64,000 nt of DNA from Pedobacter indicus (GTDB lineage: Bacteria > Bacteroidota > Bacteroidia > Sphingobacteriales > Sphingobacteriaceae). The notes below the pieces were generated by a model. That model ran no database searches. It had not been told where the DNA came from and was given only the letters and a program-made list of their open reading frames with translations. Positions 16,425 through 51,868 of this stretch are shown in pieces. The translations under genes and the position numbers were made by a program. Numbering within the stretch: position 1 is the stretch's first letter; each line of letters opens with the position of its first letter. Location of the stretch: assembly GCF_003449035.1 (NCBI RefSeq), contig NZ_QRGB01000001.1, positions 992,001 to 1,056,000 of the forward strand, given 5' to 3'.

Positions 16425-16868
16425 ATGAGTATGTTAACAAAAAAATCCAAGTACGGGATCAAAGCCCTTATCTTTCTTGGGAAGAATTATGGCAAAGAGC
16501 CTGTGCAGATTATGAAAATTGCGACGGAAGAACAGATTCCGAAGAAATTTTTGGAGCAGATTCTGATTGAACTTCGGAACGCTGGACTTCTCTATAGTAT
16601 TAAAGGGGCGAAAGGAGGGTATAGTTTGAACAAAGATCCCAAGGATATTCGGATGACGCAGGTTATCCGGCTATTGGACGGCCCTATTGCTTTATTGCCT
16701 TGTGTGAGTTTGAATTTCTATCGGAAATGTGATGAGTGTATTTCGGAGGAAATCTGTGGTATTAGGGACACTTTTGCTGAGGTCCGTGACGCGATGCTGC
16801 AGATTCTCAATGACACGAGCATTGCAGATATGATTGATCGGGAAAACTCTAGAATTCAAAACATATAA
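16425..16868 (+). CDS. Rrf2-family transcriptional regulator with Cys cluster
   Basis: 147 residues. An N-terminal winged helix (about 5-70: SKYGIKALIFLGKNYG ... LLYSIKGAKGGYSL) is followed by a dimerisation helix and four cysteines, C93, C102, C105 and C111. In IscR, NsrR and RsrR-type members such a cluster carries an Fe-S cofactor; in CymR (B. subtilis) a related protein represses sulfur genes. Its position directly upstream of the sulfite reductase operon, with a palindrome next to that operon's -7 box, suggests it controls sulfur assimilation (inference). The ligand or cluster cannot be decided from sequence. Confidence 0.9.
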   Translation: MSMLTKKSKYGIKALIFLGKNYGKEPVQIMKIATEEQIPKKFLEQILIELRNAGLLYSIKGAKGGYSLNKDPKDIRMTQVIRLLDGPIALLPCVSLNFYRKCDECISEEICGIRDTFAEVRDAMLQILNDTSIADMIDRENSRIQNI

Positions 16869-16935
16869 AATTTATTTGTCTGTAAATAAGCCTATTATAA
16901 GGGGCGTTGTTGTTTTTTTAAATAAAGTATACTAA

Positions 16936-16961
16936 ATACATAGGAATTATGTATATCTTTG
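16936..16961 (+). promoter_or_regulatory. Sulfur-operon promoter: palindromic operator overlapping -7 box
   Basis: ATACATA (16936-16942), spacer GGAAT, TATGTAT (16948-16954) form a perfect 7+5+7 inverted repeat. Its last base is the first base of TATCTTTG (16954-16961), which fits TAnnTTTG. A protein bound here would exclude RNA polymerase. The Rrf2 protein encoded just upstream is the obvious candidate. The transcript would start close to the ATG of the leader peptide at 16966. Confidence 0.5.
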
Positions 16962-16965
16962 AATT

Positions 16966-17016
16966 ATGAAAATCGTTGATATGAATTCATGGCTTAATAT
17001 GATGTGTCTTCTTTGA
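16966..17016 (+). CDS. 16-residue sulfur-amino-acid-rich leader peptide of the cys operon
   Basis: Small frame MKIVDMNSWLNMMCLL followed by TGA at 17014-17016. Five of 16 residues contain sulfur (Met 1, 6, 12, 13 and Cys 14). The ATG lies 4 bases after the TATCTTTG box, so translation may be leaderless; no Shine-Dalgarno sequence is seen. The Cys codon (17005-17007) directly precedes RNA segment 1 of the attenuator, so a ribosome waiting for Cys-tRNA would cover that segment. Real translation is inferred from this geometry, not shown. Confidence 0.55.
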   Translation: MKIVDMNSWLNMMCLL

Positions 17017-17093
17017 GTAAAGAGGCTAAGCAATGGATGCATATATTGTGAAATAATTAGTAGGGCCTCTTTCAGTCAAGGGCCTTTTTTTTT
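17008..17093 (+). promoter_or_regulatory. Candidate cysteine-responsive transcription attenuator before the sulfite reductase gene
   Basis: Four RNA segments can pair in alternative ways. Segment 1, CTTCTTT (17008-17014, last leader codons plus first base of the stop), pairs with segment 2, AAAGAGG (17019-17025), over 7 bp including one G-U, with a 4-base loop. Segment 2, AAAGAGGC (17019-17026), pairs perfectly over 8 bp with segment 3, GCCTCTTT (17065-17072). Segment 3, GGCCTCTT (17064-17071), pairs with segment 4, AAGGGCC (17078-17084), followed by nine T. Translation to the stop favours 1:2 and 3:4 (stop); stalling at the Cys codon frees segment 2 for 2:3 (read-through). This is the classical logic of amino-acid attenuators. 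Confidence 0.6.
17064..17093 (+). terminator. Intrinsic terminator of the cys leader
   Basis: GGCCTCTT / AAGGGCC stem (one bulged C and one G-U pair), loop of six bases, then a run of nine T (17085-17093). It ends 18 bases before the sulfite reductase ATG, so it must be bypassed or the gene must have its own promoter. A TAATTTTG box at 17100-17107 makes the second option possible. Confidence 0.65.
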
Positions 17094-17111
17094 GAATTAT
17101 AATTTTGCCAA

Positions 17112-19217
17112 ATGTTAAGTTTTCGAAGTGAACTAGAAAATCCTGTTGTAGAAAAGGAAATTATTGAACTAGATAAGAAAATTCGAATGTTCCGAGATGG
17201 AGAGCTCCATGAAGACAAATTTAAGAGTCTTCGTCTGGCTCGCGGAATTTACGGGCAAAGACAACCGGGGGTTCAAATGGTACGAATTAAACTTCCATTT
17301 GGACAGGCAAGTTTTAAGCAGTTGCTGAAAATTTCGGATGTCTCGGACGAATATGCGATCAAGAACCTTCATTTGACCACGCGTCAGGATATACAGATAC
17401 ACTTTGTTAGTCTTGACCGTACGCCAGAACTATGGGCAGAATTGGCTCAAGATGATATTACGCTTCGTGAGGCTTGTGGAAATACGGTGCGGAATGTGAC
17501 TGCCTCGCCCGAAGCTGGGATAGACAAAGATGAACCTTTTGATGTTTCACCGTATGCGCGGGAGATGTTTGAATACCTGGTCCGTAATCCGATTTGTCAG
17601 GAGCTTGGTAGAAAGTTTAAATTGGGTTTTTCATCCAGTGAAAAAGATTCGGCATTTGCCTATATTCACGACATCGGTTTTGTGCCACAAATAAGGACGA
17701 TAAATGGCGTGGAAGAACGTGGTTTTCGTGTTATGCTGGGTGGTGGACTTGGAGCACAGCCGATGGTGGGTTTCTTGGTTCACGATTTTCTTCATGAAGA
17801 TCAAATTATTCCTTTTGCAGAAGCGGCGATACGGGTGTTTGGTCGACTTGGAGAGCGGAATAATCGTAATAAGGCGCGTTTTAAATATGTGATTCAGAAA
17901 CTTGGCCTTGAAGCCGTTTTGGAGCTGATCGAACAGGAGTATCCGGCGCTGAAGTCAAAAACTTACAAAATAGACCGGAACAAGGTAAAAGCTCCGAACT
18001 TGCCATCTTATGAAGGTATTGCTGCCGAGGATGTTGAAGATCGATCGGCTTATGAGGTATGGCGAAAAACAAATGTTCACGAGCAGAAGCAAGAAGGATA
18101 TTTTTCGGTGTATGTGAAAGTGCCCACCGGAGATATCAGTACCGCGAAAGCGCGAACCTTGATAGCTGGTTTGGAGGGCTACGCTGCTGATGAAGTCCGC
18201 GTTACCCAAAATCAGGGTCTTCTGTTAAAGTATATCAAAGAGGAAGGTTTGCCTCATGTTTATAATCTATTATGCGAGATTGACTTGGCATCGCCGGGTT
18301 TTGATAGTGTGGCTGATATTACCACTTGTCCCGGTACAGATACCTGTAACTTAGGTATTTCGAACAGTACGGAGATGGCAAGGGTATTGGAGAATCTGAT
18401 TCTTACTGAATATTTTGATTTGGTCTATAATCGTGACCTTAAAATAAAGATCAGCGGATGTATGAACTCATGCGGTCAGCATAGTCTGGCACATATCGGT
18501 TTCCATGGAAGTTCATTGAAAGCCGGAAAGTCGGTCGTTCCCGCAGCGCAGGTGATGTTAGGGGGAGCGAAATTGGGCGGCGGATTTGGTCGGGCAGCTG
18601 ACCGGGTAATCAAGGTGCCGTCGAAGCGGGTAACTCAAGTGTTAAGGGTGCTGATTGACGATTATCAAGAGCATGCAACTGAGGCTGAACTTTATCATGA
18701 CTATTACGATCGTCAAACTAAAGATTATTTCTATCGATTATTGAAACCCTTGGCTGATCTTACTACAATTACGGAAGAAGAATTTGTGGATTGGGGCCAA
18801 AAAGAAAACTACCAGAAAGAGATTGGCATTGGTGAATGTGCGGGAGTAGTCATTGACTTGGTTGCTACGCTTCTGTTTGAGACGGAAGAGAAATTTATAT
18901 GGGCAACAGAAAGCTTTGAGAATAAGGCCTGGGCCGATTCGATTTTCCATGCGTATAGCGTATTCATCAGCGGTGCAAAGGCACTGTTATTGGACAAAGG
19001 GGTTAACGGAAATTCGCATGTGTCGATTATCGATGGTTTCGATGAGCATTTTGTGAAAACGGGAGAGTTCCCTGTACGGGATAGCTTTTCGAATATTGTT
19101 TTACAGATTAAAGCGAATGAGCCAACGCAAGAATTTGCCAATGCATATTTGGAGGAAGCGAAAGAGTTTTATCAGGCGATTTCTCGGGTTAGAGATTTGG
19201 CCAGCATTACGGATTAG
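17112..19217 (+). CDS. cysI: Siroheme/4Fe-4S sulfite (nitrite) reductase with C-terminal helical extension
   Basis: 701 residues. Two ferredoxin-like/NIR_SIR repeats (about 45-130 and 325-390) flank the siroheme domains. The cofactor ligands are C406 and C412 (TTCPGTDTC) and C450 and C454 (SGCMNSCGQH), the standard CX5C...CX3C set. It reduces sulfite to sulfide with six electrons. No cysJ flavoprotein is nearby, so ferredoxin or another donor is likely. Residues about 560-701 are an extra, mainly helical region resembling HEPN-type domains; this extension is absent from E. coli CysI. Placement with cobA, cysG, cysH and cysDN argues for sulfite rather than nitrite as substrate. Confidence 0.92.
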   Translation: MLSFRSELENPVVEKEIIELDKKIRMFRDGELHEDKFKSLRLARGIYGQRQPGVQMVRIKLPFGQASFKQLLKISDVSDEYAIKNLHLTTRQDIQIHFVSLDRTPELWAELAQDDITLREACGNTVRNVTASPEAGIDKDEPFDVSPYAREMFEYLVRNPICQELGRKFKLGFSSSEKDSAFAYIHDIGFVPQIRTINGVEERGFRVMLGGGLGAQPMVGFLVHDFLHEDQIIPFAEAAIRVFGRLGERNNRNKARFKYVIQKLGLEAVLELIEQEYPALKSKTYKIDRNKVKAPNLPSYEGIAAEDVEDRSAYEVWRKTNVHEQKQEGYFSVYVKVPTGDISTAKARTLIAGLEGYAADEVRVTQNQGLLLKYIKEEGLPHVYNLLCEIDLASPGFDSVADITTCPGTDTCNLGISNSTEMARVLENLILTEYFDLVYNRDLKIKISGCMNSCGQHSLAHIGFHGSSLKAGKSVVPAAQVMLGGAKLGGGFGRAADRVIKVPSKRVTQVLRVLIDDYQEHATEAELYHDYYDRQTKDYFYRLLKPLADLTTITEEEFVDWGQKENYQKEIGIGECAGVVIDLVATLLFETEEKFIWATESFENKAWADSIFHAYSVFISGAKALLLDKGVNGNSHVSIIDGFDEHFVKTGEFPVRDSFSNIVLQIKANEPTQEFANAYLEEAKEFYQAISRVRDLASITD

Positions 19218-19218
19218 G

Positions 19219-19983
19219 ATGACAAAGACATCAAAGATAACGCTTGTAGGTGCCGGCCCCGGAGGCACAGATTTAATAAGCTTGCGTGGATTAAAGGCTT
19301 TGGCTAAGGCAGACGTTGTATTATACGACGCGTTAGTTGATGAAGAGCTATTACAGTACTGCCCCCAAGCGGTTTGTAAAATATTTGTTGGGAAGCGAGC
19401 GAGCAATCATGCCTATAGACAGGAGGAGATCAATCAAATGCTGGTGGACTATGCATTGTCTCATGGTCATGTAGTTCGCCTAAAAGGAGGGGATCCTTTT
19501 GTTTTTGGTCGTGGTTTTGAAGAAATTGACTTTGCAAGGAAATTTGATATCCCGACGGAGGTTGTTCCTGGTATCTCGAGCGCAATCGGCGTTCCGGGCT
19601 TGTTGGGGATTCCTATTACAAATCGGGGTACGACGGAGAGTTTTTGGGTAATTACTGGGACGACGAGTAGAGGGGAGATTTCGAGAGATGTGTATGCGGC
19701 GGCTAAGACATCGGCGACTGTGGTGATTTTAATGGGGATTAAAAAGTTAGGGGAGATCGTGACTGTCTACAAAAAAGAGGGAAAAGGTGATTTGCCCATT
19801 GCTATTATACAAAATGGAGCAATGCCGGACGAGAAGATCGTGATGGGCGATATCTGCTCGATTGAAAAGAAAGCAGAAGAGTTGTATATTGGCTCGCCCG
19901 CTGTAATTGTCGTCGGAAATGTAGTCGCGTTGCATGAAGCATACAAAGAGAAAATAACAAATAATGAACTTGTTCATGTCTGA
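19219..19983 (+). CDS. cobA: Uroporphyrinogen-III C-methyltransferase
   Basis: 254 residues from the ATG at 19219, one base after the sulfite reductase stop; longer frames upstream overlap that gene. SAM-dependent tetrapyrrole methylase making precorrin-2, the first step of siroheme synthesis. Motifs: LVGAGPGGTDLISLRGLKAL (SAM-binding loop), RLKGGDPFVFGRGFEE, VVPGISSAIGVPGLLGIP and NRGTTESFWVITG. The partner dehydrogenase/chelatase domain is a separate gene immediately downstream, overlapping the end of this one; in E. coli both are fused in CysG. It supplies siroheme for the upstream reductase. Confidence 0.95.
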   Translation: MTKTSKITLVGAGPGGTDLISLRGLKALAKADVVLYDALVDEELLQYCPQAVCKIFVGKRASNHAYRQEEINQMLVDYALSHGHVVRLKGGDPFVFGRGFEEIDFARKFDIPTEVVPGISSAIGVPGLLGIPITNRGTTESFWVITGTTSRGEISRDVYAAAKTSATVVILMGIKKLGEIVTVYKKEGKGDLPIAIIQNGAMPDEKIVMGDICSIEKKAEELYIGSPAVIVVGNVVALHEAYKEKITNNELVHV

Positions 19984-20626
19984 AACAGTGAAAAATAAGA
20001 AAACGGAAGTGAAGTCGAATGATCTCTTTCCTGTGTTTTTGAAACTTCAAAACTTTCATACTTTGCTGGTTGGCGCGGGGAATGTGGGTTTGGAAAAGTT
20101 GACAGCCTTAGTGAATAATACCCCGAAGGCGCGTATAAAAGTTGTCGCTACAGCTGTTTCGTCAGAATTTCAATCGCTAGCAGATCAGCATCCTCATGTA
20201 GTAATCGTAAAAAGACCATTTATCGAAGGTGATCTGGATGGGATGACTTTTGTAGTTTTGGCAACTGATGATCATCAATTGCATCAATATATTTATGAGC
20301 TGGCGAAAGAAAGAGGAATCTTGTTGAATGTTGCTGATACACCTGACCTGTGTGATGTCTATTTGGGATCGATTGTGAAAAAAGGGAATTTAAAGGTTGG
20401 TATATCAACGAATGGAAAATCGCCAACATTGGCGAAAAGACTGAAAGAGGTATTGAACGAATGTCTGCCTGAGGAGATTGAGGAAATATTGGATAACCTA
20501 CACGCGATTCGAGAGTCGTTGAAAGGTGATTTTACTTACAAGGTTAGAAAGTTAAACGAACTGACAGCCGGATTAGTCGAGAACAAAGTTGTGAATCATG
20601 ATGGTGAGGCATCCCAAATTAAGTAG
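19976..20626 (+). CDS. Precorrin-2 dehydrogenase / sirohydrochlorin ferrochelatase (CysG N-terminal-type)
   Basis: About 216 residues. The start is either the ATG at 19976 (MSETVK, overlapping the cobA stop) or at 19964, four codons earlier. NAD-binding motif VGAGNVGLEK near residue 35 and STNGKSPTLAKRLKE in the chelatase part fit the Met8p/SirC/CysG-N family, which oxidises precorrin-2 and inserts Fe2+ to give siroheme. Translational coupling to cobA and the position in the sulfite reductase operon fit siroheme supply. Confidence 0.9.
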   Translation: MSETVKNKKTEVKSNDLFPVFLKLQNFHTLLVGAGNVGLEKLTALVNNTPKARIKVVATAVSSEFQSLADQHPHVVIVKRPFIEGDLDGMTFVVLATDDHQLHQYIYELAKERGILLNVADTPDLCDVYLGSIVKKGNLKVGISTNGKSPTLAKRLKEVLNECLPEEIEEILDNLHAIRESLKGDFTYKVRKLNELTAGLVENKVVNHDGEASQIK

Positions 20627-20628
20627 AT

Positions 20629-21339
20629 ATGAGCCAAATAGAACATGTCGAGAAATTGATTAAAGGAAAACAACCCCAAGAGGTTTTAAGGGTGTTAGGT
20701 GAAGAATTTAGAGGTGAAATAGCTTTTTCAACGAGCTTTGGTTGGGAGGATCAGGTGATAACGGATATGATATTCTCAGAGGATCTGCCGATTGATGTTT
20801 TTACTCTGGATACGGGGCGGCTCTTTAAAGAAACATATTCGGTCTGGAATCGAGTAAGAGAACGGTATAAAAAAAATATATTGGTTTATTATCCGGATCG
20901 GGTAAGACTGGAGGCGATGTTAAGCGAAAAGGGGCCAAATAGCTTTTATGAGTCTGTAGAAAATAGAAAAGAGTGTTGTGGGATTCGGAAGGTTGAACCA
21001 TTGAATCGGGCGCTGAAAGGAAAAAAAATATGGATTACAGGTATTCGGGCGGATCAGTCCGCGAATCGTGAACAGATGAATTGGGTGGAATGGGATGAAG
21101 TGCATCAGTTGATTAAGGTTCACCCAATATTCTTTTGGTCGCTGAACGATGTGAAAGATTATGTACGGGAGAATAATGTACCCTATAATGCCTTGCACGA
21201 TAAAGGATTCCCAAGTATTGGTTGTGCGCCTTGTACACGGGCGATACAGCCAGGTGAAGATTTTCGTGCCGGTCGATGGTGGTGGGAAGATCAGAGTAAA
21301 AAAGAATGTGGACTTCACATAACGAGTGCTGCCTCTTAG
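20629..21339 (+). CDS. cysH: Adenylyl-sulfate (APS) reductase, CysH family
   Basis: 236 residues of the PAPS/APS reductase family. Nucleotide loop FSTSFGWEDQV (33-43), catalytic Cys in KKECGLH (C227), and the four Fe-S cysteines C116-C117 (KECCGIRK) and C199/C202 (GCAPCTR). The CC...CxxC set marks the [4Fe-4S]-containing assimilatory APS reductases; E. coli PAPS reductase lacks it. This agrees with the absence of an APS kinase (cysC) here. It produces sulfite and AMP from APS with thioredoxin. Starts 2 bases after the siroheme gene. Confidence 0.94.
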   Translation: MSQIEHVEKLIKGKQPQEVLRVLGEEFRGEIAFSTSFGWEDQVITDMIFSEDLPIDVFTLDTGRLFKETYSVWNRVRERYKKNILVYYPDRVRLEAMLSEKGPNSFYESVENRKECCGIRKVEPLNRALKGKKIWITGIRADQSANREQMNWVEWDEVHQLIKVHPIFFWSLNDVKDYVRENNVPYNALHDKGFPSIGCAPCTRAIQPGEDFRAGRWWWEDQSKKECGLHITSAAS

Positions 21340-21382
21340 TTGGTGTTATAAAGTAATAAATAAGTAGATACAATATAGAAGA

Positions 21383-22273
21383 ATGGATTATTTAGATCAT
21401 TTAGAAGCAGAAGCGATATCGATCCTAAGGGAAGTGGCCGGACAGTTTGAGAGACCCGCTCTCTTATTTTCTGGAGGGAAAGATTCAATTACGCTGGTGC
21501 ATTTGGCAAAAAAGGCCTTTAGACCGGGTAAATTTCCTTTTCCTTTGGTACATATTGACACTGGACATAATTTCCCGGAAACAATTGAGTTTAGAGATAA
21601 ACTAATCGAAGAACTAGGGGAAAAACTGGTTGTTGGTTTAGTACAAGATGCTATTGACGAAGGTCGGGCGGTTGAGCAAAAAGGCAAGAATGCCAGCAGA
21701 AATCCGCTGCAGACAGTAACACTATTGGAAACAATAGAAAAACATCAGTTTGATGCGTGTATCGGCGGGGCACGGAGAGATGAGGAAAAGGCAAGAGCAA
21801 AGGAACGTATTTTCTCGGTGAGGGATGAGTTTGGTCAATGGGATCCTAAAAGACAGCGTCCAGAGTTATGGAGTATTTTTAACGGACGTATTCAAAAGGG
21901 TGAAAATGTACGTGTATTCCCGATAAGTAACTGGACTGAACTGGATGTGTGGAATTACATAAAAAGAGAAAATATTGAAATCCCGTCGTTGTATTTTGCG
22001 CATGAACGCGACTGTATATTACGGAATGGTCAGTGGATGACTGCGGATCCGAGCCTGAATATGGATCATGAAGACCAAATTGTCAGGAAAAACGTACGCT
22101 TCAGAACGATCGGTGACATGACCTGTACCGCTGCAGTGGAGTCCGATAGAGCTGATATTGACGGAGTGATCGAGGAAATCAGCAGTTCGCGTATTTCTGA
22201 ACGTGGTGCACGGATGGATGATAAGGTTTCAGAGGCAGCGATGGAGGACAGGAAAAAAGGTGGTTATTTTTAG
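21383..22273 (+). CDS. cysD: Sulfate adenylyltransferase subunit 2, CysD
   Basis: 296 residues, usual length. PP-loop ATP pyrophosphatase fold with FSGGKDSITLVHLA near residue 29, plus HIDTGHNFPETIEFRD, GGARRDEEKARAKER and NWTELDVWNYI. It catalyses ATP + sulfate to APS + PPi, driven by GTP hydrolysis of CysN. It lies 43 bases after cysH and 20 bases before cysN in the same operon. Confidence 0.97.
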   Translation: MDYLDHLEAEAISILREVAGQFERPALLFSGGKDSITLVHLAKKAFRPGKFPFPLVHIDTGHNFPETIEFRDKLIEELGEKLVVGLVQDAIDEGRAVEQKGKNASRNPLQTVTLLETIEKHQFDACIGGARRDEEKARAKERIFSVRDEFGQWDPKRQRPELWSIFNGRIQKGENVRVFPISNWTELDVWNYIKRENIEIPSLYFAHERDCILRNGQWMTADPSLNMDHEDQIVRKNVRFRTIGDMTCTAAVESDRADIDGVIEEISSSRISERGARMDDKVSEAAMEDRKKGGYF

Positions 22274-22293
22274 GATACGATAAAAAATTAATA

Positions 22294-23535
22294 ATGGATA
22301 TATTAAAATTCATAACGGCGGGGAGTGTTGATGATGGGAAAAGTACGTTGATTGGTCGATTGCTATATGACACAGATTCAATCTTAGAAGATCAATTGGA
22401 GGCGATTCGGAATGCTAATCGTAAGAATGATGACGGTACGGTCGATTTAGCTATTTTGACTGATGGTCTAAAAGCTGAACGCGAACAAGGAATTACGATT
22501 GACGTTGCATATAAATATTTCCAGACAGATAAGCGTAAGTTTATTATTGCTGATACACCTGGTCATATTCAGTATACCCGCAATATGGTGACTGGTGCAT
22601 CGGGGGCTGATTTAGCAATTATTTTAATTGATGCGAGAAAAGGTGTTATTGAGCAGACTATTCGACATACATTTCTTGTGTCGCTCCTTCAGATCCGGCA
22701 TGTATTGGTATGCGTAAATAAGATGGATATGGTCGATTACGATCGCCTTGCTTTTGAAAAAATTAAGGAGGATTATCTTCGTTTTTCGAAGAAGCTTTCG
22801 ATTCCTTCCATCGATTTTATCCCTGTTAGTGCATTGCGAGGAGACAATATTGTGGAGCAATCAACGAATATGGCTTGGTATGAGGGACAATCATTGCTTC
22901 ATTTCCTAGAAACAGTCGAGGTGGAAAAAGGAAAAGCCGTTGATATCGGCAGGTTTCCGGTACAATGGGTTGTGCGGCCGCAGACGGATGAATTGCATGA
23001 TTATCGAGGCTATGCTGGTCGGGTAGTTGGTGGCTCATTTAAAGTGGGTGATAAAGTGATTCTTCTGCCTTCGGGCTTCCACACCGCGATTTCTCATATT
23101 GAACTTAATAACGAACAGTTGGATGTGGCTAGTGAAGGGCAGTCAGTGATTTTGCGATTAACAGATGATTTAGATATTAGTCGCGGCGACTTGATTGTGA
23201 CGGCGAGTGGAGAAAGTCCCAACTTGACAAAAGGTATTGAGGCTTCGATCTGTTGGATGGATACACGCCCGCTTGATCTTTCACAGACTTATTTATTGCA
23301 GGTTAACAGCAAGGTGTCTAGAGTGAAGATACGAGATGTTCACCATAAAATTAATATTAATACGCTAGAGGAAGTTGCAGCAGATAGTTTTGGGCTTAAC
23401 GATATCGGCAGAATCTCTTTACGGTCTGCAGATGAACTTGCGATTGATTCTTATGCTAATAATAAAGCAACAGGAGGGGCTATATTGATCGATAGTCGGA
23501 CAAACCTTACCGTAGGTGCTTTGATGTTTGACTAA
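22294..23535 (+). CDS. cysN: Sulfate adenylyltransferase subunit 1 (GTPase), CysN
   Basis: 413 residues. EF-Tu-like GTPase with G1 GSVDDGKST (10-18), G3 DTPGH and G4 NKMD, followed by two beta-barrel domains. The length matches CysN alone: there is no fused CysC kinase domain (about 600 residues in CysNC proteins), consistent with direct APS reduction by the upstream gene. Last gene of the tight sulfur operon; 131 bases separate it from metZ. Confidence 0.96.
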   Translation: MDILKFITAGSVDDGKSTLIGRLLYDTDSILEDQLEAIRNANRKNDDGTVDLAILTDGLKAEREQGITIDVAYKYFQTDKRKFIIADTPGHIQYTRNMVTGASGADLAIILIDARKGVIEQTIRHTFLVSLLQIRHVLVCVNKMDMVDYDRLAFEKIKEDYLRFSKKLSIPSIDFIPVSALRGDNIVEQSTNMAWYEGQSLLHFLETVEVEKGKAVDIGRFPVQWVVRPQTDELHDYRGYAGRVVGGSFKVGDKVILLPSGFHTAISHIELNNEQLDVASEGQSVILRLTDDLDISRGDLIVTASGESPNLTKGIEASICWMDTRPLDLSQTYLLQVNSKVSRVKIRDVHHKININTLEEVAADSFGLNDIGRISLRSADELAIDSYANNKATGGAILIDSRTNLTVGALMFD

Positions 23536-23595: not shown

Positions 23596-23651
23596 TAAAT
23601 TTGGACGAATACAAACAGATCGTTTGGTGATGTTGCTCGGCGGTCTGTTTG
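23596..23651 (+). promoter_or_regulatory. metZ leader: -7 box followed by strong hairpin and U-rich stretch
   Basis: TAAATTTG (23596-23603) fits TAnnTTTG. Starting 8 bases later, CAAACAGATCG (23612-23622) pairs with CGGTCTGTTTG (23641-23651) over 11 bp with one G-U; the loop is 18 bases and TTTTAATT follows. The hairpin may simply terminate the cysN transcript, or it may sit in the 5' leader of metZ and act as an attenuator. It does not match a riboswitch class I know. Confidence 0.5.
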
Positions 23652-23666
23652 TTTTAATTAACTTTA

Positions 23667-47914: not shown

Positions 47915-50900
47915 TTAATACGATAGGTTCGGACTGAGCCACTTCTCGGCTGTTTCTAAGTCGGCTCCTTTGCGAATAGCATAATCCTCAACTTGGTCTT
48001 TGGCTATTTTTCCTAGTCCGAAGTAGCGCGAATGAGGGTGCGAGAAGTAAAAACCACTCACAGCTGCTGTCGGGTACATTGCGAAGCTCTCTGTTAAGTG
48101 GATGCCCGCGTTTTCTTCGGCGTTAAGAAGGTCGAATAACGTCCTTTTCTCAGTATGGTCAGGACATGCAGGGTAGCCCGGTGCGGGGCGGATACCGTCG
48201 TATTTTTCCTTAATCAGTTCTTCATTTGTGAATTCCTCTTCTCTAGAATACCCCCAAAACTCTTTACGTACCATTTCGTGCATTTTCTCAGCAAAAGCTT
48301 CAGCAAAACGATCTGCTAAGGCTTTGACCATGATGGCATTGTAATCGTCATGGTTTTTTTCATATTCTTTTACCAGTTCATCACAGCCGATACCACTGGT
48401 AACGGCGAATCCTCCCCAGTAATCGGCGCGACCGCTATCTTTTGGTGCTACAAAATCCGACAAAGCATAATGTGGTTCGCCAGGAACTTTTTCAGATTGC
48501 TGTCTCAACGTATGAATCCTTGTGAGAACTTCAGTTCTTGAATCATCCGTGTAAAGCTCGATGTCGTCGCCAATATTATTAGCTGGCCAGAAACCGATTA
48601 CACCATTTGCCGTGAGGAGATTATTATCCACCAGGTTTCTTAGCATTTTTTTAGCGTCGTCGAATAATTTAGTTGCTTCTACCCCGACTACTTTGTCTGT
48701 TAATATCCTCGGATAGCGTCCTCGCAGCTCCCATGTATGGAAGAATGGAGTCCAATCTATATAAGGTTCGAGCTCTTCAAATGAAAAATTATTAAATACT
48801 TTTGTTCCAAAAAATGTCGGTTTTGGTGGCACGTAGTCCATCCAGTCCGTTTGGAACCTGTTTTTTCTTGCTTCTTCAATACTTACATAACGCTTGTCAG
48901 ATCGTTTTTGTAAATGTGCTTCGCGTGTTTTCGTATAATCTTCATGAACAGTTTTGATATACTCATCTTTAGTGGCCGCATTCAGCAGATTGGTACAAAC
49001 GCTTACACTTCTTGATGCGTCAAGTACGTGGACAGTTGGCCCAGAATAATTAGGGGCTATTTTTACGGCTGTATGAATCCGTGAGGTTGTTGCACCGCCG
49101 ATAATAAGCGGGAGCTTCAACCCATTTCGATCAGCTTCTTTTCCGAAATTGGCCATTTCATCTAGTGACGGTGTGATGAGTCCGCTAAGTCCTATAATAT
49201 CCGCATTCTGCGCAATCGCTTCATCGATTATTTTTTGTGCCGGTACCATGACTCCTAAGTCGATGACCTCAAAGTTATTGCAGGCAAGCACTACAGCCAC
49301 GATGTTTTTGCCGATATCATGGACATCACCCTTAACGGTTGCCATCACAATCTTCCCTGCATTCTTCCTTTCGGATTGATCTTCGTTTTTTAGCTTCTCA
49401 GCTTCGATAAACGGAAGTAGATAAGCTACTGCTTTCTTCATTACCCGCGCAGATTTAACTACCTGGGGTAGGAACATCTTTCCGGAGCCAAATAAGTCAC
49501 CAACGACATTCATCCCGTCCATTAGCGGCCCTTCAATAACTTCTAACGGTTTATCATATGCCAATCGTGCTTCTTCAACATCATTGTCCAGATAATCAAT
49601 AATACCCTTTACCAAAGCATGAGATAGGCGTTCTTGTACGGTGCCTTTTCTCCATTCTTCTGATTTCTCAACCGTCTTCCCCTTGCTTTTAATAGTTTCG
49701 GCGAAGTCAACCATCCTTTCTGTTGCATCATCACGACGATTCAATAGAACGTCTTCGATGTGAACGAGAAGAGTCGGATCAATTTCTTCATAAACCTCCA
49801 GCATCCCTGCATTAACGATCCCCATGTCAAGACCAGCCTTTATCGCATGGTACAAGAAAGCTGAGTGCATCGCCTCGCGTACAACATTATTGCCACGGAA
49901 AGAGAATGAGATGTTACTTACACCGCCGCTGACATGTACGAGGGGAAGGTTTTCTTTTATCCATCGTGTTGCTTTGATAAAATCAACCGCATAATTGTTA
50001 TGTTCTTCAAGACCCGTAGCAACGGTTAATATATTGGGATCAAAAATAATATCTTGGGGCGGGAAGTCAATGGATACCAATAATTTGTATGACCGCTCAC
50101 AGATTTCTATCCGGCGCTCAAAAGAATCAGCTTGGCCTGTTTCATCGAAAGCCATGACGACGACGGCAGCGCCGTAATCCATGACTTCACGTGCATGCTG
50201 GAGAAACTCTTCCTCTCCCTCTTTTAGGGATATCGAATTAACGATACCTTTTCCTTGAAGACATTGTAATCCAGCACGAATAACCGACCATCGTGATGAA
50301 TCGATCATGATCGGAAGCTTAGCAATGTCAGGTTCAGATGCTATCAAGTTGAGGAACTTGACCATCGCCTTTTCGGAGTCAAGCATTCCCTCGTCCATAT
50401 TAACGTCAATGATTTGAGCACCACCTTCAACTTGCTGACGGGCAACGGCAAGCGCTTCTTCATATTTGTCATTTAAGATGAGTTTAGAGAACTTGGGCGA
50501 ACCCGTAATATTGGTTCGTTCTCCAATGTTGATAAACAGACTTTCCGGTTGTACTGTCACAGCCTCTAAGCCACTAAGTCGTAAGTAGGCCTCAGGTTTT
50601 GGCGGTTTTCGAGGCTTCCCTTTACTGGCTCTTTCCAGAATGCAGGCTATGTGTTCGGGCGTGGTGCCACAACATCCTCCGACGATATTGACAAATCCAT
50701 TTTGAATAAAATCATCTAAAAGGTGAGCCGTATCATGAGCTTGTTCATCGTATTCACCAAATTCATTGGGTAAACCTGCGTTTGGGTAGGCGGAAACAAA
50801 AAACGGAGCCTTTTGGGCGAGTTCCGCAATATGCGGTCTCATCTCTTTAGCGCCCAAGGCACAGTTTAGGCCAATACTCAAAGGATTGGCGTGACTTAAG

Positions 50901-51610
50901 GAATTCAGAAATGCTTCTACGGTCTGACCTGATAAGGTTCTCCCGCTAGCATCTGTGATGGTTCCTGAGATCATGATTTCCAGTTGATTATCACGATTTA
51001 ACTTCCCGTTTTCATGGAGTTCTTTTTGATATTTTTTTATAGCATAGATAGCCGCTTTTGCGTTAAGCGTATCAAAAATGGTTTCGATAAGCAGTAGATC
51101 CGCACCTCCATCGACTAAGCCACGAACTTGTTCGTAGTAAGCATCCACTAGTCCGTTAAATGTGACTGCTCTGAAACCGGGATCATTTACATCAGGCGAA
51201 AGCGATGCTGTCCGGTTGGTAGGGCCGATCGCTCCGGCAACGAAACGAGGCTTGGATGGGTCTGTGGTTGTGAATTTTAATGCAGCTTCTTTTGCTATCC
51301 TGGCACCTTCGAAGTTTAGTTCGTAGACCAGTTCCTCCATCTGGTAGTCAGCCATCGATATCTTTTGAGAGCTGAATGTGTTTGTTTCGATAATATCGGC
51401 ACCCACCCTTAAGTATTCTTCGTGAATCTGGGCGATTATCTGTGGCTGCGATATGTTTAACAGATCATTGTTCCCTTGCACATCACATGGATGTTCAGCA
51501 AATCTTTCTCCGCGAAACGACTTCTCATCCAATTTATGACGTTGAATCATCGTTCCCATCGCACCGTCAATAACTAAAATTCGTTTTTTTAACGCTTCTC
51601 TTATACTCAT
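47915..51610 (-). CDS. metH: Cobalamin-dependent methionine synthase MetH
   Basis: 1231 residues, full-length. Domains in order: homocysteine-binding with Zn cysteines (GLNCALGA near 248 and [11 protein letters not shown] near 313), methyl-THF pterin-binding (about 355-620), B12 cap (about 660-740), B12-binding with DVHDIGKN (His near 764), and the SAM-dependent reactivation domain (about 900-1231, with [16 protein letters not shown]). It transfers the methyl group from methyl-THF to homocysteine. First gene of an operon with metF and an Ldh-family gene, behind a SAM-I riboswitch. No B12-independent MetE is in the window. Confidence 0.97.
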
Positions 51611-51700
51611 TTTCTGACAACAAAATCCTTAATATCAGTATTTTAAGGAAAGTAAAATAAAATGCTTTTTTATTAGAGGAAGAGCGGGAGAAGTTCCGCA

Positions 51701-51805
51701 GCTTATCTTTCCTGATATATCTAGAATCAGGTAGAATGTAGCACCTTGTAAGTACAGGTTGCCAAGACTTCTTCGGGTCTAATCCCTCCGTCTTTCTCTA
51801 TAAGC
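51701..51805 (-). promoter_or_regulatory. SAM-I (S-box) riboswitch upstream of metH
   Basis: On the minus strand the conserved elements come in the right order and spacing: P1 arm ATAAGC-complement at 51800-51805, GAGGGA (51783-51788) and GGCAACC (51757-51763) of the kink-turn/P2-P3 region, AAGGTGCTA (51739-51747) of the P3-J3/4 core, a P4 hairpin CCTGAT/ATCAGG (51711-51731), and the closing P1 arm ATAAGC (51701-51706). About 90 bases separate it from the metH ATG. A weak GCGG/CCGC hairpin follows, without a U-run, so the expression platform (terminator or translation block) is unclear. SAM binding should turn the operon off. Confidence 0.93.
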
Positions 51806-51868
51806 AAGACAAAGGTGCTAATTATTTTTGATAATTTTCAATTTTAACGGAATACTATTTCGGTATCA

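Follow-up and report, generated by a model that had tools for sequence, protein, structure and literature searches.

We describe, directly upstream of a cysI-type sulfite reductase gene of Pedobacter indicus, what we consider with high confidence to be a leader-peptide transcription attenuator for sulfate assimilation that would answer to charged Cys-tRNA. Sequence comparison points to a short open frame, its enrichment in Cys and Met codons, the phasing of these codons to the RNA behind them, covarying helices, a terminator and a gene context of sulfate assimilation. A shortage of Cys or Met would very probably turn the sulfide-forming genes on. An attenuator had been proposed at this place in a first-pass annotation made from the letters alone, and that proposal is supported by the Cys enrichment of the leaders, by covariation in both helices and by a Cys-to-core distance that is fixed in half of the loci.

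Results

Layout of the putative attenuator

The window analyzed here is the whole stretch of 64,000 nucleotides, which lies in a genome of 3.47 Mb. The features surrounding the leader are given below in order of position.

16425-16868, plus strand: gene for an Rrf2-family transcriptional regulator, adjoining the operon (Pfam PF02082, E 2.9e-38)
16936-16954, plus strand: inverted repeat ATACATA-N5-TATGTAT, overlapping the promoter (sequence)
16954-16961, plus strand: promoter match TATCTTTG to the Bacteroidota -7 box TAnnTTTG (sequence; same place in relatives)
16966-17016, plus strand: leader frame MKIVDMNSWLNMMCLL with its stop, from ATG 16966 to TGA 17014-17016, 16 codons (Cys-rich counterparts in relatives)
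16999-17007, plus strand: proposed control codons ATG ATG TGT, Met-Met-Cys (sequence; Cys/Met enrichment, phasing and retention)
17008-17014, plus strand: segment 1 (7 pairs with segment 2 at -3.7 kcal/mol in the window sequence)
17019-17027, plus strand: segment 2, the proposed antiterminator strand (8 perfect pairs with segment 3; conserved GGCT core at 17024-17027)
17064-17072, plus strand: segment 3, common to antiterminator and terminator (pairing and energies)
17062-17093, plus strand: intrinsic terminator, a bulged hairpin at 17062-17086 with T9 at 17085-17093 (helix covaries in relatives)
17112-19217, plus strand: cysI-type assimilatory sulfite reductase gene, the first past the attenuator (Pfam NIR_SIR, NIR_SIR_ferr)
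19219-23535, plus strand: rest of the operon, with a tetrapyrrole methylase (siroheme; cobA-type), a siroheme dehydrogenase-type protein, APS/PAPS reductase, CysD and CysN (Pfam)

The leader frame contains one Cys codon (TGT, 17005-17007) and four Met codons including the start, with a Met-Met pair at 16999-17004. In the 1:2 helix, CTTCTTT (17008-17014) pairs with AAAGAGG (17019-17025) through 7 pairs, one of them G-U (-3.7 kcal/mol). The 2:3 helix joins AAAGAGGC (17019-17026) to GCCTCTTT (17065-17072) through 8 perfect pairs (-7.7 kcal/mol), and the 3:4 helix joins GGCCTCTT (17064-17071) to AAGGGCC (17078-17084) at -6.7 kcal/mol, with nine T (17085-17093) directly after it. Because the segments overlap, the three helices are mutually exclusive. 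On direct reading, the frame, its Cys and Met counts and the coordinates of all three helices had been given right to the base in the first-pass annotation; its perfect 8-bp 2:3 pairing was confirmed, as was its 3:4 hairpin with nine T, which carries one bulged base at 17069. Gene names in the operon were assigned from Pfam matches and order, with APS reductase and CysD told apart by order among two PAPS-reductase-domain proteins that are followed by a CysN-like GTPase; the methylase query began one codon upstream, at 19216.

Under the proposed mechanism, RNA polymerase would initiate from the TAnnTTTG promoter (16954-16961), and a ribosome would load close to the mRNA 5' end, on the leader ATG at 16966. 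With Cys-tRNA (perhaps also Met-tRNA) charged, the ribosome would reach the stop at 17014 and cover segment 2, upon which segment 3 would pair with segment 4 and transcription would terminate in the T-run before cysI. With Cys-tRNA short, the ribosome would stall at the Met-Met-Cys codons (16999-17007), segment 2 would pair with segment 3, no terminator would form, and the sulfite reductase, siroheme, APS reductase and CysDN genes would be transcribed. The transcription start, the translation of the leader, the stalling and the direction of regulation are what we infer from this arrangement. The Met-Met-Cys codons end 11 nt 5' of segment 2. Counted from the first base of the Cys codon, segment 2 starts after 14 nt and the core after 19 nt. 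The ribosome edge lies about 12-13 nt past the A-site, so a stall at Cys would keep the window's segment 2 exposed, and a ribosome that had reached the stop would cover it.

Cys-rich leaders upstream of cysI in relatives

The cysI loci comprised the best 80 of a longer list from a genome collection and 28 from family genomes (L084-L111). Together with the window and a second entry (L082) for Albibacterium bauzanense, the one other genome of the same genus that was searched, and minus ten duplicates, these gave a set of 100 regions. Frames were picked blind by their position behind a promoter match 130-200 nt 5' of cysI, with Cys content ignored. It was noted that 55 of the 60 frames obtained contained Cys, 46 contained at least two Cys and 37 contained CC. 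The 60 frames held 132 Cys in 1271 residues, whereas 2000 nucleotide shuffles averaged 31.7 and never exceeded 52. The search for Cys codons upstream of cysI orthologues that the first-pass annotation had suggested was thus positive. Examples include MEQTIMPVPCCMALV in Parapedobacter composti, MKTVNLTSMCLYMCCMYP in Pedobacter metabolipauper, MNEQLAHTTGTMCICCCYNNSKTRLL in Mucilaginibacter galii and MEKFNLYSMCMCFE in A. bauzanense. Fifty frames were retained by requiring Cys and a length of at most 30 aa, with L051, L053 and L067 dropped for length and L049 (which has CC), L068 (with Cys; both have TTG starts), L070 and L099 (both without Cys) removed by hand. A terminator was present in 49 of these loci (L109 was lost), and the start of L098 was set by hand to GTG.

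A detector was built that required an ATG or GTG frame of 8-42 codons that held at least two Cys and was followed by a terminator. It was positive in 63 of 173 non-redundant regions upstream of cysI; among the controls it accepted 2 of 1730 dinucleotide shuffles and no reverse complement (0 of 173). A cysI match was found in 29 of the 99 genomes of a class sample (26 of them outside Sphingobacteriaceae) and in 32 of the 198 genomes of a phylum sample, and the 173 regions also drew on 30 family genomes chosen for genus coverage; they include a few that are not truly upstream, with start codons that could not be placed (L169, L181, L196), and others in which cysI is not first. Sphingobacteriaceae account for 47 of the positives (of 127 regions) and other families for 16 (of 46). 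Of the latter, L291, with two scattered Cys, was rejected as a false positive that is still counted among the 63. The remaining 15 represent 11 families outside Sphingobacteriaceae, one (L292) outside the class, and leaders from outside the family include MINQNKMMCCCCKSTERWKW, MNDITFKAGTIRIAMMCCCCCMMNDSSGSDL and MKNTSKQNFSFHMCMCMCMCCCMRGDSGDLYSS. The detector failed in 110 of the 173 regions, and it fails for the window because that leader has one Cys only. No CC-type leader, the only type sought there, was found in 16 stretches upstream of operons in which cysI is not first (13 f54, 2 f15 and 1 f36).

The distribution of the leader was then compared with a CysI tree; of its 81 rows, 43 carry a leader (membership in the 49-locus set) and 38 do not. 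The label changed 7 times, compared to 27.1 changes when shuffled, and the leader therefore appears to be inherited with losses or gains. All 18 tree rows named Sphingobacterium were without a leader, which was also absent from some Mucilaginibacter and Pedobacter loci. When R1, a covariance model of the family element, was run on 121 family genomes, 85 had at least one match at E <=0.05, although unrelated terminators account for many of the weak ones (e.g. L134, L140); the 15 best matches (E <=2.7e-5), which include training sequences or near copies, all lie just 5' of cysI.

Two kinds of deviating loci were also observed. Three Mucilaginibacter loci (L007, L040, L075) keep the promoter and terminator with no Cys frame found behind the promoter; these look like relics, or may use another sensing mode. 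In L051, a frame MQICCC lies about 129 nt 5' of cysI with T8 directly after it and the usual spacing to segment 2 absent, which is perhaps a rearranged attenuator.

Composition and drift of the leader peptides

The 49 peptides contained 120 Cys compared to a shuffle mean of 26.2, and 93 internal Met compared to 19.2; Asn and Tyr were also enriched, to a lesser degree (100 compared to 54.4 and 75 compared to 45.9). Met clusters by Cys: of 143 Met, 97 lie no more than two residues from a Cys, compared to a mean of 65.3 and a maximum of 83 in shuffles. Runs were counted in 63 peptides, namely 62 from the detector requiring two Cys and the window. Internal Met occurred in 61 of them, the mean longest Cys/Met run was 3.5 compared to 1.9 when shuffled, and Cys runs of at least two were found in 52, with no run in the window, which has one Cys. 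The first-pass annotation had named Cys as the signal; the Cys enrichment bears this out, but Cys may not be the sole signal, since internal Met is equally enriched. The element may sense Met as well as Cys, and a joint sensor would explain the Met-Met-Cys of the window. Alternatively, the Met enrichment could stem from the RNA sequence itself. More tentatively, and with somewhat more doubt than belief, we propose that these elements might represent an ancient phylum-wide sensor of sulfur amino acids, in which near-leaderless Cys/Met micro-frames (e.g. MMCCCCCMM, MCMCMCMCCCM) with a 22-nt ruler to the antiterminator would read Cys-tRNA and Met-tRNA jointly and gate sulfate assimilation.

Drift was assessed in 12 pairs of relatives. 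Differences at the three codon positions numbered 50, 61 and 66, with no third-position excess, and codon changes were synonymous in 24 cases and nonsynonymous in 91. Retention was 78% for Cys (46 of 59) and 89% for Met (40 of 45), compared to 59% for other residues; Leu, Phe and Trp retention was also high on small numbers. The difference between Cys and all other residues was moderate (Fisher exact test; p 0.02), a value that is overstated because each site was counted twice. At six Cys sites a synonymous change had occurred with Cys kept. The leader peptide is thus hardly conserved, as expected of an attenuator frame, whereas a working micropeptide would show more constraint. Better retention of Cys and Met would also be predicted if the Cys/Met-rich peptide were itself functional, by binding metal, heme or a thiol or by arresting its own ribosome, and runs such as CCCC and MCMCMCMCCCM, which we take to be reminiscent of metal ligands, are in keeping with such a function. 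We nevertheless regard this as very improbable, given that 91 of the 115 changed codons are nonsynonymous, that peptide length and ends vary, that the Cys codon is phased to the RNA core (see below) and not to the end of the peptide, and that the gene context is sulfate assimilation.

Distance from the proposed control codons to the RNA core

A GGYT/GACT core was located near the stop codon in 46 of the 49 loci, including the window, and was absent in L064, L087 and L107; the core chosen was the one nearest the stop codon, blind to Cys. The distance from the last Cys codon, counted at its first base, to the start of the core is exactly 22 nt in 23 of the 46 loci (sd 3.9, median deviation 0.5), compared to a stop-to-core distance with an sd of 5.9 and a median deviation of 7.0. 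The 22-nt distance was seen with the stop codon 12, 15, 18, 21, 27 and 30 nt past that Cys. Among 37 loci in a shared frame phase, the codon at -25 nt from the core is Cys in 30, that at -22 is Cys in 26 and that at -19 is Met in 22. The last Trp and the last Leu are also partly phased to the core (9 of 14 and 19 of 39), because the core itself is read as Trp/Arg-Leu-stop in many loci. The best single reference point for the core is the Cys(-Met) codon, as required for a stalled ribosome.

Covariation of the terminator and antiterminator helices

Covariation was scored in an alignment (A2) of 47 relatives that excluded both the window and A. bauzanense, with explicit structures taken from the single rows L008, L042 and L023. 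The terminator helix had both-side changes in 6 of 9 pairs and a score of 0.265 compared to 0.207 shuffled (0 of 500 as high), with slid registers at 0.141 or below; one pair failed to form in 39 of 46 rows. When segment 2 was paired with the upper arm and loop of the terminator (GUGGCUG/CAGCCAC), the helix had both-side changes in 8 of 8 pairs and a score of 0.298 compared to 0.187 shuffled (0 of 500 as high), with slid registers at 0.103 or below. In this antiterminator 70.7% of cells are paired, the outermost pair in 11 of 44 only. Compensatory changes, the other comparative check that had been suggested, were therefore present in the terminator and in an antiterminator helix. In the window, in Parapedobacter and in some Mucilaginibacter, the best helix is the 2:3 register put forward in the first-pass annotation, in which segment 2 pairs with the base of the terminator's 5' arm; family-wide, this register showed no covariation excess (0.110 compared to 0.104).

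The segment 2 and segment 3 of a locus pair better with each other than with the partners from unlike loci (mean percentiles 0.77 and 0.73; Wilcoxon p ~1e-6), although the loci are not independent and p values overstate independence because the loci are related. With the terminator loop included, the antiterminator helix reached p <=0.05 in 13 of 49 individual loci, a modest number. Across a further 22 loci (7 in the family, 15 outside) the helix sequences differ widely, and p 0.05 was reached in 7.

Two earlier procedures were replaced. A duplex-energy test without the terminator loop (mean z -0.98; p <=10/200 in 13 of 49) gave way to the loop-inclusive version, and an RNAalifold consensus of the first alignment, which held 5 pairs only and had the Parapedobacter arm shifted, gave way to A2 with explicit structures.

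Strength of the copy in the window

Taken alone, the window's copy stands out hardly more than chance would allow; it would be unconvincing without its relatives, and the case is built on them. Its folding z is -0.81, with 39 of 200 shuffles at least as stable, and its 2:3 helix has p = 0.056 compared to shuffles. A generic terminator scan gave no match at the window hairpin, probably because of the bulge. The Cys count of one is the fewest in the 49-locus set, tied with five others. An RNA model built with the window and A. bauzanense left out ranked this copy first in the window at 14.7 bits, with an E of 0.76 that is not significant, and recovered the A. bauzanense element at 29.9 bits (E 0.001). 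When R1 was run on the genome containing the window, only the cysI copy stood out (E 0.018, for a training sequence), the next match having E 1.3.

The single Cys codon, the folding z and the leave-out E value are what one would expect if the P. indicus copy were a relic, that is, a plain terminator or leftover with a chance Cys codon, and sulfur control lay with the Rrf2 regulator alone. The Rrf2 gene does adjoin the operon, a palindrome lies over the promoter, and the three relic-like Mucilaginibacter loci with a terminator and no Cys frame found offer a parallel. We consider a relic improbable here, because the frame remains open and stops just short of segment 2, the 2:3 pairing has no mismatch and T9 is intact. 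The promoter-ATG spacing is moreover common in relatives, the Cys-to-core distance of 19 nt is near the modal 22, and A. bauzanense, of the same genus, has two Cys codons and a recognisable element.

S-box or T-box RNAs serve many sulfur operons elsewhere, and a SAM riboswitch is present elsewhere in the window, so a ligand-binding riboswitch or T-box acting through the same terminator was weighed as well. No Rfam family reached threshold at the window element, including Bacteroid-trp (RF01692), S-box and T-box, and a permissive search of 16850-17150 returned two chance-level matches only. In 15 element-bearing loci there was likewise no Rfam match at the element, with only a tRNA matched elsewhere. 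Conservation falls on the Cys/Met codons, the terminator and a short core, and we find a riboswitch or T-box the least probable of the explanations considered, at the far end of what we would entertain.

Promoter region and the Rrf2 neighbor

The Bacteroidota -7 box consensus is TAnnTTTG, as quoted in PMC7366714. The spacing from the TAnnTTTG match to the leader start is 4 nt in 19 of 49 loci, among them the window, and no more than 14 nt in 47 of 49; the L098 match is a TTTA variant. The transcription start is predicted just 5' of, or at, the leader ATG (16966). With this -7 box the 5' UTR would be a few bases long in many loci, and translation of the leader is predicted to be near-leaderless. 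Leaderless mRNAs are reported to be rare in two species of the phylum, with about 3.7% of 5' UTRs shorter than 10 nt in Bacteroides thetaiotaomicron (PMC7366714) and 5.5% in Flavobacterium psychrophilum (PMC9723704).

Over the promoter, the 49 aligned loci share a conserved block, CtActAtTTCc.TATActaTaTaTATATTTG, that ends at the -7 box (window ~16914-16961) and is a candidate Rrf2 operator. The inverted repeat at 16936-16954 is also a possible operator for this regulator. Rrf2-like frames (MLSKKTKYG...) were seen by eye 5' of cys genes in the stretches of other families too. The Rrf2 neighbor probably sets initiation on top of attenuation.

It was noted that a second TAnnTTTG-like match, TAATTTTG, lies at 17100-17107, 4 nt 5' of the cysI ATG, and that A. 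bauzanense is without one there. This promoter-like sequence could yield a leaderless cysI mRNA that bypasses the attenuator.

Discussion

The trp, his and leu operon attenuators of proteobacteria are the classical leader-peptide type. The putative element shares with them a short frame with control codons, exclusive helices and an intrinsic terminator before a biosynthetic operon. It differs in its control codons, which are Cys (with Met), in a leader start predicted to lie very near the mRNA 5' end, in its phylum, and in that segment 2 pairs in most relatives with the upper arm and loop of the terminator and not with the base. Bacteroid-trp RNA is a Trp leader, from which the element is set apart by the lack of an Rfam match here and by a different amino acid and operon. 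That RNA (Rfam RF01692) appears among candidate Bacteroidetes RNAs in a table of PMC2864571.

Closer in content are the polycysteine leader frames before cys operons in mycobacteria and other Actinobacteria, for which PMC1262725 finds no conserved terminator hairpins and suggests Rho. The mycobacterial Cys frames are described as leaderless (PMC9031893, citing Canestrari et al. 2020) and are treated as cysteine-regulatory (PMC9094748, PMC13236596, citing Canestrari et al. 2020). Runs of Cys codons before a cys operon are common to those leaders, leaderless in mycobacteria, and to the relatives studied here; unlike them, the present elements have an intrinsic terminator with a covarying antiterminator, and Met is co-enriched.

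Within the phylum, leader-peptide attenuation has been suggested before unspecified amino-acid operons of F. psychrophilum (PMC9723704), and short frames occur in long 5' UTRs of B. thetaiotaomicron (PMC7366714). Both resemble the present case in phylum and in having short 5' frames, and no cysteine operon is named in the main-text parts compared. The corresponding portions of PMC2965389 and PMC2864571 make no mention of a cysteine leader in Bacteroidota. In the open-access literature, among the matches listed and in the parts compared, no published Bacteroidota cysteine attenuator was found, which agrees with the earlier statement that none was described for this lineage, the F. psychrophilum suggestion with its unspecified operons being the exception. 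The possible Met sensing, the predicted near-leaderless translation of the leader and the upper-arm/loop pairing in most relatives may be new.

If true, the attenuator would bring an RNA switch into the regulation of sulfate assimilation in Bacteroidota. The same logic recurs in 11 families outside Sphingobacteriaceae with different helices and peptides, and this recurrence makes it directly testable in culturable Albibacterium, Parapedobacter and Mucilaginibacter. To our knowledge, the enteric activator CysB is not expected in Bacteroidota. Most genes in the phylum are without Shine-Dalgarno sites and follow a promoter code of their own (in part PMC7366714 and PMC9723704). The leader set would offer natural material on near-leaderless ribosomes stalling at single or mixed control codons.

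Related elements before other genes

Leaders were also sought before cobA and APS reductase genes in 30 genomes, mostly without a cysI leader, with a loose detector whose background was 132 hits in 1500 control windows, one or more of which overlapped a real leader. One clear leader was found among the 30 loci before cobA, and none convincing among the 27 before APS reductase. The clear case is genome G002, of another genus, in which a Cys leader MVSNKTHGKFNYMIMCNTCCSRYRL and a terminator (L137 / L211) precede cobA in the same layout. The cysI region of that genome (L176) has no leader.

In the window, a gene for a Cys/Met-metabolism PLP enzyme (Pfam) follows the operon after a 131-nt gap. Upstream of it (gene start 23667), the stretch 23596-23659 holds TAAATTTG, a 10-bp hairpin (23613-23622/23641-23650, paired by eye) and then GTTTTAATT, which is possibly a second attenuator. 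The SAM (S-box) riboswitch of the window lies at 51700-51806 on the minus strand (73.4 bits), just 5' of a 1231-aa frame at 47915-51610 (minus strand) that we take to resemble a cobalamin-dependent methionine synthase. Methionine synthesis is thus probably also under RNA control in this genome.
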